A DNA stretch of 39,735 nucleotides from Caulobacteraceae bacterium (GTDB lineage Bacteria > Pseudomonadota > Alphaproteobacteria > Caulobacterales > Caulobacteraceae), in the NCBI GenBank assembly GCA_025352085.1, contig JANXUA010000064.1:1-39735 (forward strand), written 5' to 3'. The notes beneath the pieces were generated by a model. The model searched no databases, was not told the origin of the DNA, and worked only from the letters and a program-made list of their open reading frames with translations. Each line of letters begins with the position of its first letter. Within the stretch, counting starts at the first letter, position 1. Below are positions 21,158-39,735 of the stretch, piece by piece. The translations under genes and the position numbers were made by a program.

Positions 21158-21234
<77 letters not shown>

Positions 21235-35958: not shown

Positions 35959-36759
35959 ATGGCCGACCCCACCCCGACCGACACCGCCCCCATCTCCGGC
36001 AATGTGCTGTTCTACTCCAAGCCCGAGCCCCTGACGCCCGAGCTGCACGGCAAGATCGGCCTGCGGCGCGTTGACGGACCGTTCGCCTTCGCCGCCGGCA
36101 GCCAGATCGCGCCGCTCACCGTGGCTGAATTTCCCATGGCGTCCTCGTCCTATCCGATCATTTTCGCCGGCGAACGGTTTCAGCCTCTGGCCGTCATGGG
36201 CGTCAGCAACGACACCAACATGTTCATTCAGGCCAACGGCCTGTTTGAGCCGGGGATGTACATCCCTGCCTACATCCGCCGCTATCCGTTCGTTCTGGCC
36301 AACGACTCGGCCAACGAGCAGCTGGTGGTGTGTATCGACCGCAACGCGACCATGGTGGGCGACCTGCCCGACCTGCCGTTCTTCGACCCTGCCGGCCAAC
36401 CGACCGACTACACCAAGAACTGCATCCAGTTCTGCAATGATTTCGAGACCGAAAACCGCCGCACCGAATCGTTCGTCGCCTTGCTGACGGAGCTCGATCT
36501 GCTCGAGACCCGCAAGCAGATGTTCACGCCGACCAATCCCGACGGCTCCCTCGGTCAGCCGCAGGAAGTCGCCGAGTATTTCGCGGTGTCCGAGGACAAG
36601 CTGAAGGCCCTGCCCGAAGCCAAGATCCGCGAGCTGATGGACAACGGCGCCCTGCCGCAGATCTACGCCCATTTGATTTCGCTCAACGGCTGGGACCGCC
36701 TGGTGAGCCTGGCCCTGATCCGCCAGTCCCTCGCGCCGACGGCGGCGAACCTGAACTAA
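35959..36759 (+). CDS. SapC-family protein
   Basis: A 266-residue protein without a signal peptide. It matches SapC: FYSKPEPLTPELHGKIGLRRVDGPFAFAA, then EFPMASSSYPIIFAG, GMYIPAYIRRYPFVLA and the acidic RRTESFVALLTELDLLETRKQ. The family is named after a gene associated with S-layer protein expression in Campylobacter and is common in Caulobacterales and sphingomonads, often near TonB receptors and tryptophan halogenases, but its biochemical role is not established. Here it stands between phaR and ggt with no such partners. Confidence 0.92.
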   Translation: MADPTPTDTAPISGNVLFYSKPEPLTPELHGKIGLRRVDGPFAFAAGSQIAPLTVAEFPMASSSYPIIFAGERFQPLAVMGVSNDTNMFIQANGLFEPGMYIPAYIRRYPFVLANDSANEQLVVCIDRNATMVGDLPDLPFFDPAGQPTDYTKNCIQFCNDFETENRRTESFVALLTELDLLETRKQMFTPTNPDGSLGQPQEVAEYFAVSEDKLKALPEAKIRELMDNGALPQIYAHLISLNGWDRLVSLALIRQSLAPTAANLN

Positions 36760-36799
36760 CCAAAAGCCGGGATCAGCCCGGACCGGACTGGAGGTCGCC

Positions 36800-38485
36800 G
36801 TGCGCCTGTTGTCGAAGTCGTGGACGGCGCCGGCCCTCCTCGCCGCCGCGCTTATCGGCCCGGTCCAGGCCGCGCCGCGTTCCGCTCCCCTGACCGCCGG
36901 CGCCGTCGCCTCGCCCGATCGCTACGGCGCTCAGGCGGCGCGCGAGGTGCTCCAAGCCGGCGGCAACGCCGTCGACGCCGCCGTGGCGACCGGTTTCGCC
37001 CTGGCCGTCACCTATCCGGACGCCGGCAACCTCGGCGGCGGCGGGTTCATGACCCTCTACGTCGACGGCAAGCCGTATTTCCTCGACTATCGCGAGACCG
37101 CGCCCGCCGCCGCCTCCGCCGGTATGTATCTGGACGCCAAGGGCGCGCCGATCGTCGAGCGTAGCCTGGTCGGACCTCTGGCCGCGGGCGTTCCGGGCAC
37201 GGTGCGCGGCCTGGCCGAGGCGCATCGTCGGTTTGGCAGGCTTTCCTGGGCGCGCGACATGGCCCCGGCGATACGGTTCGCTGAGCAAGGCTTCGTGGTC
37301 CCGCTGCAATTGGACGCCTTTCGCCAGTCGGAGCGCGGACCCTTCATCGGCGTCGCCAACTTCGACCGCTATTTTGACGCCATGCGCACGGGGCGCCTGT
37401 TTCGCCAGCCAGAGCTGGCCGCCACCCTACAGCGGATCGCCAAAGGCGGCGACGCCGAGTTCTACACCGGCAAGACCGCTGATCTGCTCGTCGCGCAAAT
37501 GGCGCGCGGGCCTCATCCCGGCCTGATAAGCAGGGCCGACCTCGCCGGCTACAAGGCCCTCTGGCGCGCGCCGTTGGTCGGCGACTGGCGCGGCTACCGC
37601 GTCATCACCGCCCCGCCGCCCAGCTCGGGCGGCATTGCCCTGATGCAGCTTTTGATCATGAAACAGGACGACGCGGCCCTGTTTCACGGCGTCGCGCTCA
37701 ATTCGCCGCAATACATCCACCTGGTTTCGGAGATTGAAAAGCGGGTGTTCGCCGACCGGGCCGAATATCTGGGCGACCCGGATTTCGTGAAGGTTCCCGG
37801 CGCCGCCCTGATCGATCCGACCTATCTGGCCAAACGCGCCGCGCAGGTCGATCCGGTGAAGCCGTCGGCCACAACGGGCGTGACGCCCGGTCTGGAAAAG
37901 CCGCAGACCACGCATTTCTCGATCGTCGACCGCTGGGGCAACGCCGTCTCCAACACCTATACCTTGAACGGCACGTTCGGGGCGGGCGTGGTGGTCGAGG
38001 GGGCGGGCTTCCTGCTCAATGACGAGATGGACGATTTTTCGGTCAAGCCCGGCGCGCCCAACCAGTTCGGCGTCGTCGGCGGCGCGGCCAACGCCATCGC
38101 CCCCTTCAAACGCCCCCTGTCGTCGATGACCCCGACCATCCTGACCCGGGACGGCCATGTCGCCATGGTGATCGGCACCCCCGGGGGATCGCGCATCTTC
38201 ACCTCGGTGTTCCAGGTGCTGGAAAACGTCTACGACTTCAACCTGCCGCTGGCCGCCGCGCTGGCCAAACCGCGCTTCCACCACCAGCTCTTTCCGGAAA
38301 ACACGGTATATTCCGAACCCTACGCGCCGTTTTCGAAGAGCCTTCAGGACGCGCTGAAACGTCGGGGCTACCGCACCGAAGCACAGGACTTCAACGGCGA
38401 TATCGCGGCGATCGAGATCAATGGGCAAACCCCGACCCCCACCGCCGACCCGCGCGGGCGGGGGGTGGGAATGGTTGTGAAGTAA
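36800..38485 (+). CDS. ggt: Gamma-glutamyltransferase (periplasmic glutathione hydrolase)
   Basis: A 561-residue N-terminal nucleophile hydrolase from GTG 36800, with GGAGG just upstream. A signal peptide (WTAPALLAAALIGPVQAA) leads to the large subunit (NAVDAAVATGFALAVTYPDAGNLGGGGFM, which includes the glutamate-binding region). Autoprocessing is expected at Gln369-Thr370 in KPQTTHFSIVD, freeing Thr370 as nucleophile of the small subunit (NTYTLNGTFGAG, PLSSMTPTI, GTPGGSRI). It cleaves gamma-glutamyl bonds of glutathione in the periplasm. Length and motifs indicate a functional enzyme. Confidence 0.95.
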   Translation: MRLLSKSWTAPALLAAALIGPVQAAPRSAPLTAGAVASPDRYGAQAAREVLQAGGNAVDAAVATGFALAVTYPDAGNLGGGGFMTLYVDGKPYFLDYRETAPAAASAGMYLDAKGAPIVERSLVGPLAAGVPGTVRGLAEAHRRFGRLSWARDMAPAIRFAEQGFVVPLQLDAFRQSERGPFIGVANFDRYFDAMRTGRLFRQPELAATLQRIAKGGDAEFYTGKTADLLVAQMARGPHPGLISRADLAGYKALWRAPLVGDWRGYRVITAPPPSSGGIALMQLLIMKQDDAALFHGVALNSPQYIHLVSEIEKRVFADRAEYLGDPDFVKVPGAALIDPTYLAKRAAQVDPVKPSATTGVTPGLEKPQTTHFSIVDRWGNAVSNTYTLNGTFGAGVVVEGAGFLLNDEMDDFSVKPGAPNQFGVVGGAANAIAPFKRPLSSMTPTILTRDGHVAMVIGTPGGSRIFTSVFQVLENVYDFNLPLAAALAKPRFHHQLFPENTVYSEPYAPFSKSLQDALKRRGYRTEAQDFNGDIAAIEINGQTPTPTADPRGRGVGMVVK

Positions 38486-38566
38486 GAGCTTCGCTGCCGC
38501 CAGGCTTTCAATCGTCTAGCTTACGTTGCACGGTGTGCTGGGATCGTGGGCCGAAGCGCAAAACCG

Positions 38567-39421
38567 ATGGTGGATCAGACAAACGCCGGGGCCGACTGGG
38601 GGGCGGACGAGCTGGATGCGATCGTCGCCGACTATTTCGCCATGCTAGACGCGGAACGGTCCGGACAATCTTACGTAAAAGCTCACCACAACAGAGCCGT
38701 GAGCCAATTGATTGGCCGCTCGCATCGTTCCATCGAATTCAAGCACATGAATATATCGGCGGTTCTGCGCAATCTGGGTATGCCGACCATAAGAGGCTAC
38801 ATGCCTGCGTCCAACTTCCAGAAAGCCATTCTCGGTGCGATCGAACGGCATCTGTCCGGTCCATCAATACTCTCGAGACTGGATCAGTTAGCCCCGACCG
38901 GGGTTGCTGACGGCAATGTTGCAGCGACTCTGTTTGTGGAAACTCCACCGATGGTCGACGTCAACCCAAATTTGAATTCAAATCGCGATGCGCTTGAACG
39001 TCTGGTCCGGAAATTTGACCCAACCGAGCGAGACGCACGTAATCGCGATTTGGGTAAAGCGGGCGAGGCCCTTGTCTTGGAGTTCGAGCGTCACCGCCTT
39101 CGACGAGAGGAACGACGGGACTTGGCCGCAAAAGTGCGCTGGGTCGCGCAGGAGGACGGTGGCGGCGCAGGCTACGACATCCTCTCTTTTGACACGTCCG
39201 GTCGGGAACGGCTGATCGAGGTCAAGACAACACGAGGCATAAGTACGACGCCGTTCTTTCTTAGCAGCAACGAGCGGTCGTTGGCCGACGAACGACCCGA
39301 GGAATTCCGAATTTTTCGCGTCTATGAATATGGCGTTGCGCCCAAGGTGTTCAAACTACATCCACCCTTGGAACAATTTGTGCGTCTTGAACCAACCACC
39401 TACCGTGCATCATTCGGATAG
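38567..39421 (+). CDS. DUF3883-domain nuclease-like protein
   Basis: A 284-residue protein if started at ATG 38567 (an in-frame GTG at 38546 is possible). Residues 10-95 form a conserved N-terminal module (ADELDAIVADYFAMLD ... HHNRAVSQLIGRS-HRSIEFKHMNISAVL) found in stand-alone restriction-endonuclease-like proteins. The C-terminal DUF3883 domain has the PD-(D/E)XK pattern: Glu167, Asp204 (AGYDILSFD) and Glu218-x-Lys220 (LIEVKTT). Such proteins occur in restriction and other defence islands. The gene is noticeably lower in GC (two 60-base lines that I counted are 48%, against 77% for a line in ggt), suggesting recent transfer. No methyltransferase or other defence gene is adjacent. Confidence 0.85.
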   Translation: MVDQTNAGADWGADELDAIVADYFAMLDAERSGQSYVKAHHNRAVSQLIGRSHRSIEFKHMNISAVLRNLGMPTIRGYMPASNFQKAILGAIERHLSGPSILSRLDQLAPTGVADGNVAATLFVETPPMVDVNPNLNSNRDALERLVRKFDPTERDARNRDLGKAGEALVLEFERHRLRREERRDLAAKVRWVAQEDGGGAGYDILSFDTSGRERLIEVKTTRGISTTPFFLSSNERSLADERPEEFRIFRVYEYGVAPKVFKLHPPLEQFVRLEPTTYRASFG

Positions 39422-39425
39422 ACCC

Positions 39426-39735
39426 CTACCGCGCGAACACGCTCCGGGTCAGGCATGAGAACACCAGCCTTCCGGCCTCGTCCAGCAGATCGTGCTGGGC
39501 GATGACGAGGCCTTTGCCGTCGCCGACCGGATCCTTGCCCATGACGGTCATGCGGCCACGCAGAAGTTCTCCGGCGGGAGGATTGCGGGCCCACCGCAGG
39601 GCGTCGACGCCGACGCGTTTGGTCTGCGGCCAGTCGGCCGAGGCGGCGGCGTCCAGGCGGCTCCACAGAGCGAAGACCATGACGTCGGGCGCGCCCTGCT
39701 CAAGGGTCCAGCCGGGCGTGAAGGCGTCGACAAAG
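39426..39735 (-). CDS. MaoC-like hot-dog hydratase/dehydratase, C-terminal part (cut by window edge)
   Basis: The frame is open to the right edge, so about 102 C-terminal residues are visible: FVDAFTPGWTLEQGAPDVM..., then KRVGVDALRWARNPPAGELLRGRMTVMGKD and GKGLVIAQHDLLDEAGRLVFSC. The pattern G-V-D-x-L-R-W ... P-x-G-E ... V-x-x-K (here GKD) ... L-L-x-x-x-G-R-L-V matches the second half of MaoC-type enoyl-CoA hydratase-like proteins. The catalytic Asp-His would be upstream, outside the window. It converges on the DUF3883 gene with a gap of four bases between stops. Confidence 0.75.
   Translation of the reverse strand, partial: FVDAFTPGWTLEQGAPDVMVFALWSRLDAAASADWPQTKRVGVDALRWARNPPAGELLRGRMTVMGKDPVGDGKGLVIAQHDLLDEAGRLVFSCLTRSVFAR

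Follow-up and report, generated by a model that had tools for sequence, protein, structure and literature searches.

A stand-alone DUF3883 nuclease-type gene in a Caulobacteraceae genome and its predicted DNA-binding module

Close to one end of a 39,735-nucleotide contig from a Caulobacteraceae bacterium (NCBI GenBank assembly GCA_025352085.1, contig JANXUA010000064.1; this whole stretch is referred to as the window) lies a gene of low GC content that raises the question of what a solitary nuclease gene does in such a genome and how it came to be there. The gene, which we call X, occupies positions 38567..39421 of the forward strand, from an ATG at 38567 to a stop codon at 39419-39421, and is predicted to encode a protein 284 aa long. 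An in-frame GTG at 38546 is an alternative start that would add seven amino acids. Pfam placed a NOV_C domain (DUF3883, PF13020) at residues 166-263 (39062..39355, forward strand; E 3.1e-21; 75.7 bits, the cut-off being 22.1). A preliminary description made from the sequence by eye had proposed a stand-alone DUF3883 nuclease gene here, and both its extent and its domain proved correct. NOV_C was the only Pfam domain on the protein at E-values up to 1, with no HNH nuclease domain, and occurs once in the host genome at E 0.001. NCBIfam profiles gave no match and PHROGs gave two weak ones. The PADLOC profile PDC-S36, in which we take PDC to stand for phage-defence candidate, matched residues 8-283 over profile positions 4-279 of 280 (E 2.9e-106). 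This full-length match places X, as a new member, in a candidate family already known, and the sequence supports its being a stand-alone nuclease-type gene within a family catalogued for possible phage defence.

Upstream of X and in the same orientation is a gamma-glutamyltranspeptidase gene recognized by Pfam (36800..38485), preceded by a gene on the same strand that we take to be SapC-like (35959..36759). Downstream is a convergent partial open reading frame of 102 codons, presumably hotdog-thioesterase-like, that runs off the contig (39426..39734, reverse strand); this frame and the SapC-like gene were recognized as conserved flanks by comparison with relatives. The contig ends 314 bases past X, so the right-hand neighbourhood is barely visible. 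No mobility gene lies beside X in the window. PADLOC at 1e-10 found no methylase among the 43 window ORFs, which take in just those 314 bases on the right side of X; at the same threshold it attached the names mad3, mad8, AriA and C3a194 to four other window ORFs, and we took these to be generic matches. At the opposite end of the window, positions 1-549 hold what is presumably an integrase-like N-terminal fragment running off the contig (3-341, reverse strand) and an adjoining stretch resembling the 3' half of a tRNA that ends at about 549; together they resemble the border of an integrated element. ARAGORN reported a tRNA-Arg at 21158 as the sole tRNA of the window and none within 1-549.

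We examined the C-terminal domain in an alignment of 78 members, made up of the window protein with 77 relatives taken from the matches listed in two scans. E167, D204 and K220 were present in 78 of 78 members and E218 in 77, and the pattern tested, E followed by D-x13-E-x-K, is conserved in the family, which bears out the earlier reading of intact PD-(D/E)XK-like residues. AlphaFold2 modelled the full protein from the 78-sequence alignment with a pLDDT of 89.8 and a pTM of 0.85. Residues 153-280 of this model aligned with a SPARDA nuclease chain (Z 9.0, rmsd 4.0 over 108), with Hjc resolvase (Z 8.1, rmsd 3.0 over 98), with NhoI (Z 7.0) and with DpnI (Z 6.2), where values below 8, or below about 13 for helical models, may reflect a common arrangement alone. 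The C-terminal half of the model also aligned with the domains of NhoI and Eco15I that were solved with methylated DNA. Foldseek returned no match to the full model below E 0.001. Comparison of the family profile with PDB sequences gave a single row, the DASH subunit SPC34 (E 6.9e-5), which we took to be a chance match of helical stretches. The C-terminal domain of X is thus predicted, on the model and the conserved residues, to have a restriction-endonuclease-like core fold of the PD-(D/E)XK type. This agrees with print, where DUF3883 has been termed a novel REase domain (PMC3710099, seen in part). The available part of PMC2292703 deals with restriction-modification (R-M) neighbourhoods in which Vsr and methylases occur, and it contains neither the term 'no vein' nor 'REase'; the domain terms for this family are absent from the available parts of PMC13092281 and PMC7461809.

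The N-terminal part of the protein forms a module of its own (residues 11-97; 38597..38857, forward strand). Ten of its residues, W11, K38, R51, E57, K59, H60, N62, A65, G77 and Q85, are the same in all 78 members, so that the conserved N-terminal module noticed at the outset is real. Modelled alone with AlphaFold2, residues 1-100 gave a mean pLDDT of 88.6 with helices at 13-31, 38-49, 53-69 and 86-97. The best VIA-align match was a homeodomain (Z 7.0, rmsd 1.9 over 58), which is below the Z trusted for helical models, and the closest superposition was with 1du0 (1.0 Å over 51, Z 6.4). Homeodomains made up most of the 50 rows obtained (Z 7.0 to 4.6); some of the others were Myb-type and spliceosome chains, and further down the list came a few unrelated ones. 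Foldseek with the N-terminal model found no match below E 0.001, leaving room for other folds, and the N-terminal profile against PDB chains gave one row (E 0.88) and no homeodomain. In the comparison with DNA-binding folds that had been suggested, the predicted model resembles homeodomains, at scores that are middling (Z 7.0 at best). We predict a homeodomain/Myb-like three-helix fold followed by a fourth helix. In several engrailed rows the ends of model and chain differed by 11 residues each time (67/56, 69/58 and 70/59); with helix 3 aligned free of gaps, N62 would fall at position 51 of the homeodomain. Asn51 of homeodomains is a base-contacting residue. Helix 53-69, which carries N62 (38723..38773, forward strand), is thus a putative recognition helix on the grounds of model and conservation. 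No description of the module was found in the literature searched.

Is this module confined to NOV_C proteins? Scans with the module are biased to the query's own class, and a sample of the phylum gives the fairer count. Matches occurred in 35 of 398 sampled genomes, and in the 30 loci of these 35 that were opened the module ended in NOV_C 23 times (the window's copy included) and in HNH seven times, four by Pfam and three by motif, with no other ending. Among viruses, Vibrio phage L9-1 has the module joined to an HNH domain, and this HNH domain matched residues 152-278 of EcoKMcrA (E 1.8e-33). Nine viral loci (L191-L199) encode relatives of the L9-1 protein, three of them checked by Pfam and PADLOC, and two more (L214-L215) have the module with HNH_2 by Pfam. 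One open frame (L242:1087-2373) contains a UDG-superfamily domain, the module and a McrA-like HNH domain, and is possibly, to judge by these domains, a base-excising, DNA-cutting fusion. A six-frame count over all loci gave 178 module ORFs, a number in which near-copies, and genes drawn twice from different collections, are counted; 153 had NOV_C and 25 did not, four of the latter being truncated or unexplained (L086, L106, L108 and L109). Nine residues (N62, W11, E15, Y23, K38, R51, I63, S64 and G77) are invariant in all 18 sequences compared, five from NOV_C and 13 from HNH versions. An extra N-terminal head was present on seven of the 153 module ORFs with NOV_C, both enterobacterial plasmid copies opened being among these seven, and on one of the 25 without. 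This head matched residues 10-90 of ScoMcrA (E 2.4e-4), whose own head domain is of unknown function according to the available part of PMC6224610. By these sequence comparisons, the module appears portable between NOV_C and HNH nucleases.

The base composition of X differs sharply from that of its surroundings, as had been remarked for its two neighbours. Simple gene calling gave 33 ORFs of more than 400 bp in the window, X included, and X ranks lowest of them for both GC (55.7%; mean 66.3%, sd 3.8, z -2.8) and GC3 (60.0%; mean 81.4%, sd 6.7, z -3.2). GC3 is 84.9% in the upstream and 85.4% in the downstream neighbour. Five other copies in the genus also have GC below that of their own fetched loci, the window copy being among the most extreme.

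Presence and absence in close relatives, which the preliminary description had named as a check, proved patchy. Five of 15 other genomes of the same genus had a match, 62-71% identical (in G004 over residues 126-283 alone), and eight of the 60 genomes searched had one, the window's own included. No match was found in the remaining ten of the 15, two of which are under 90% complete. In a flank survey of 12 relatives (G012, G014 and G015 lie outside it), the SapC-like and hotdog-like genes adjoin, without X, in seven (G001, G002, G005, G008, G009, G010 and G011). Between them G003 has a cupin-like gene and G007 a beta-lactamase-like gene, both named from translation, and G004 has gamma-glutamyltranspeptidase and a truncated X that lacks the N-terminal module, an arrangement like that of the window genome (G000); in G006 and G013 the SapC-like gene is not on the piece fetched. 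The interval between the two flanks (36760-39428 in the window; L045, L052-L062) is a variable site. We infer from these sequences that gamma-glutamyltranspeptidase and X were inserted between genes that are adjacent in the seven relatives. The copies of X in G000 and G004 are 72% identical over 151 aa, and the G004 fragment is 68-71% identical to other genus copies; the flanks common to the two genomes are 79-90% identical, closer than the copies of X. The shared site may reflect one insertion or a later replacement. The other copies in the genus are elsewhere, beside PIN in G008, NamZ in G007 and LepA in G006, and in G015 the neighbours are again different ORFs without clear family.

In a rapidly built tree of 78 members of the family, rooted at the midpoint and with SH-aLRT values as its sole support, the window protein grouped with L110 and L111 (SH-aLRT 97) among Caulobacteraceae copies. 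Its end branch is 0.49 against 0.12 for its sister, which may indicate relaxed constraint. Pairs of X gave dN/dS of 0.05-0.21 with dS of 1.05-2.7, and one pair was not computable; because dS is near saturation we make no claim of selection on X. Elsewhere in the tree, an acidobacterial group of 17 with one proteobacterial MAG (98) is nested inside a mixed alphaproteobacterial-acidobacterial set (99), which suggests transfer between phyla. The idea that X had been acquired by transfer thus stands in part: the patchiness and the adjacency of the flanks in seven relatives favour it, whereas a recent arrival from a distant donor was rejected in view of the grouping with Caulobacteraceae copies and the lower GC common to the five other genus copies. 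On those two grounds X looks more like part of a long-resident, mobile gene pool. Vertical inheritance in the whole clade with ordinary composition, the case that had been set against transfer, was rejected as well, with ten of 15 genomes lacking a match, an unusual GC content and copies at differing sites.

What, then, does X do? We think it probable that X is a stand-alone restriction-type DNA endonuclease, in which a homeodomain-like module would direct a PD-(D/E)XK nuclease to incoming DNA. The module would be the part that binds DNA, with helix 53-69 probably seated in the major groove, while cutting near the bound site would fall to the NOV_C domain; the module would act as a portable reader, borne by relatives on McrA-type HNH nucleases. 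Computation shows the domains, the conserved catalytic residues, the swapping of the module, the patchiness and the R-M genes near some relatives; DNA binding, cleavage, choice of target and defence are all things that we infer for X. Its most likely role would be the cleavage of phage or plasmid DNA entering the cell. The cell's own DNA would be spared either if the target mark or site is missing from the host genome, as in a type IV-like, modification-dependent enzyme, or if it is masked by a methylase encoded elsewhere. Judging from sequence, a role in defence of the restriction type is likely. Dependence on modification is plausible by analogy, and is favoured by the parts held in common with McrA-type enzymes. 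No functional study of the PDC-S36 family or of X was found in the literature searched.

The genes around other family members bear on these readings. Ten seeds (C5 methylase, Vsr, HsdM, two HsdS, Z1, HNH, DUF4928, BrxC/D and AIPR), all of them derived from the very loci under study, were sought in flanks of up to 4 kb. R-M or related seeds were found in 19 of 80 family loci (the best 80 of at least 484) and in none of the other 61; without BrxC/D (L172) and AIPR (L138), whose labels are our own assignment, the count is 18 of the same best 80 of at least 484. None occurred in 42 viral loci or in 13 control loci, the latter being a weak control of 112,385 bases against 578,000 bases in the 80 family loci, with simple ORF calls. 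The control loci were drawn from relatives in the genus, and one of them (L064) is on the contig carrying the G015 copy.

An alternative that we regard as unlikely, though it is the strongest of those considered, is that X serves as the sequence-specific restriction subunit in a conventional Type II R-M system whose cognate methylase is elsewhere or lost. The R-M operons of some family members favour such a Type II-like role: in one locus (L118) a C5 methylase end, DUF4928, Vsr and Z1 lie directly ahead of the family member, and in another (L154) HsdM and a specificity-type gene do. The host genome keeps a single C5 methylase, on a different contig from X, and DUF3883 is presumed Type IIR in the available part of PMC10609329. 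Against this, the window has no methylase, the 61 of the best 80 loci (of at least 484) have no seed, and four plasmid stretches that were opened had no annotated methylase in a gene table that is incomplete.

Less probable still is an accessory or abortive-infection role for X, as a nuclease that would act with partner systems or on the host and recognize no specific mark. In sphingomonads a gene annotated as HEPN (annotation in L010) lies directly upstream of the family member (L010:5293-5985, L166:3303-3992, L185:3303-3986) and is 68% identical between L010 and L166, one on a plasmid and the other on a chromosome, so that the pair is possibly a two-gene variant. In L116 and L134 an HNH gene overlaps the family member by 4 bases, and partners in general are varied. 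No fixed partner gene was found across the 80 loci (the best 80 of at least 484), however, and the window copy has none at all.

Many relatives of X are found on phages and plasmids. Of 43 viral loci fetched, an X-family frame begins at the first base of the contig in 14; with L109 left out, a serine recombinase lies within the fetched stretch in 32 of 42 loci and a DUF2924 gene in 24 of 42. A Vibrio phage gene with DUF3427 and NOV_C (L066:3020-4396) lies between a CI repressor and an integrase, two genes from CI, and in the phage with the module and HNH the gene adjoins CI. Matches occur in 1204 of 72,556 plasmid records; 1115 of these cover 80% or more of the query, and 882 of the full 1204 are typed as conjugative. 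The plasmid form, which is 40.6% identical to X, is present over at least 80% of its length in 581 of 5426 complete E. coli genomes, at 626 places altogether, 545 of them on plasmids. On the two enterobacterial plasmids opened (L011 and L065; CP088806.1 and MH430882.1) the X relative lies near blaTEM-1, and on one of them also near pieces of aac(3)-IId. The recombinases of the viral loci, the conjugative plasmids, the loss of the module in G004 and the long end branch might be taken to mean that X is a mobility-linked nuclease, a prophage or plasmid cargo excluding rivals that brings little benefit to the host chromosome and is decaying in the window, but X is full length with all its catalytic residues and has no adjoining mobility gene, and we consider this very improbable.

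We return to X as a probable restriction-type endonuclease. Taken by itself, X adds one protein to a candidate family that is already catalogued, and the REase reading of DUF3883 is in print. The point of interest is the portable module: a small predicted DNA-binding module on NOV_C, McrA-like HNH and HNH_2-type nucleases is a testable reading with named residues. A bolder proposal, which we put forward tentatively and with more doubt than conviction, is that the module is an undescribed homeodomain-fold DNA reader, interchangeable between PD-(D/E)XK (NOV_C) and HNH nucleases, with N62 in the base-reading role of homeodomain Asn51. It would mark out a widely distributed class of restriction enzymes, each encoded by one gene and probably dependent on modification, that occurs in Alphaproteobacteria and Acidobacteriota, at the margins of prophages and on numerous resistance plasmids of enterobacteria. 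Given how widespread the plasmid form is in E. coli, a defence or exclusion function, if real, could bear on plasmid spread and phage sensitivity.

Among known systems, the closest to X is the single-protein model PDC-S36 of PADLOC, which it matches over its full length with no difference seen; no test of this anti-phage candidate was found in the literature searched. The E. coli phage-defence protein PD-T4-1 is similar to the C-terminal part of X (residues 149-259 on profile positions 237-351 of 383, E 2e-16), the remaining profile being unmatched; as a whole word the name occurs nowhere in the available main text of its source paper (PMC9519451). The Type IV HNH enzymes EcoKMcrA and ScoMcrA compare at the level of parts: relatives of X carry the same module on a McrA-type HNH domain, and a ScoMcrA-type head is found on some of the longer NOV_C members, whereas X itself has no HNH domain and NOV_C as its sole Pfam domain. 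In EcoKMcrA the specificity domain NEco stands ahead of the HNH part and is built on a six-stranded beta-sheet, as given in the available part of PMC7145662, whereas the module of X is predicted to be all helical. With the homeodomain/Myb fold the modelled module would share the three-helix arrangement and, in a gap-free alignment, the position of N62; it differs in having no sequence-level match and in its extra fourth helix.
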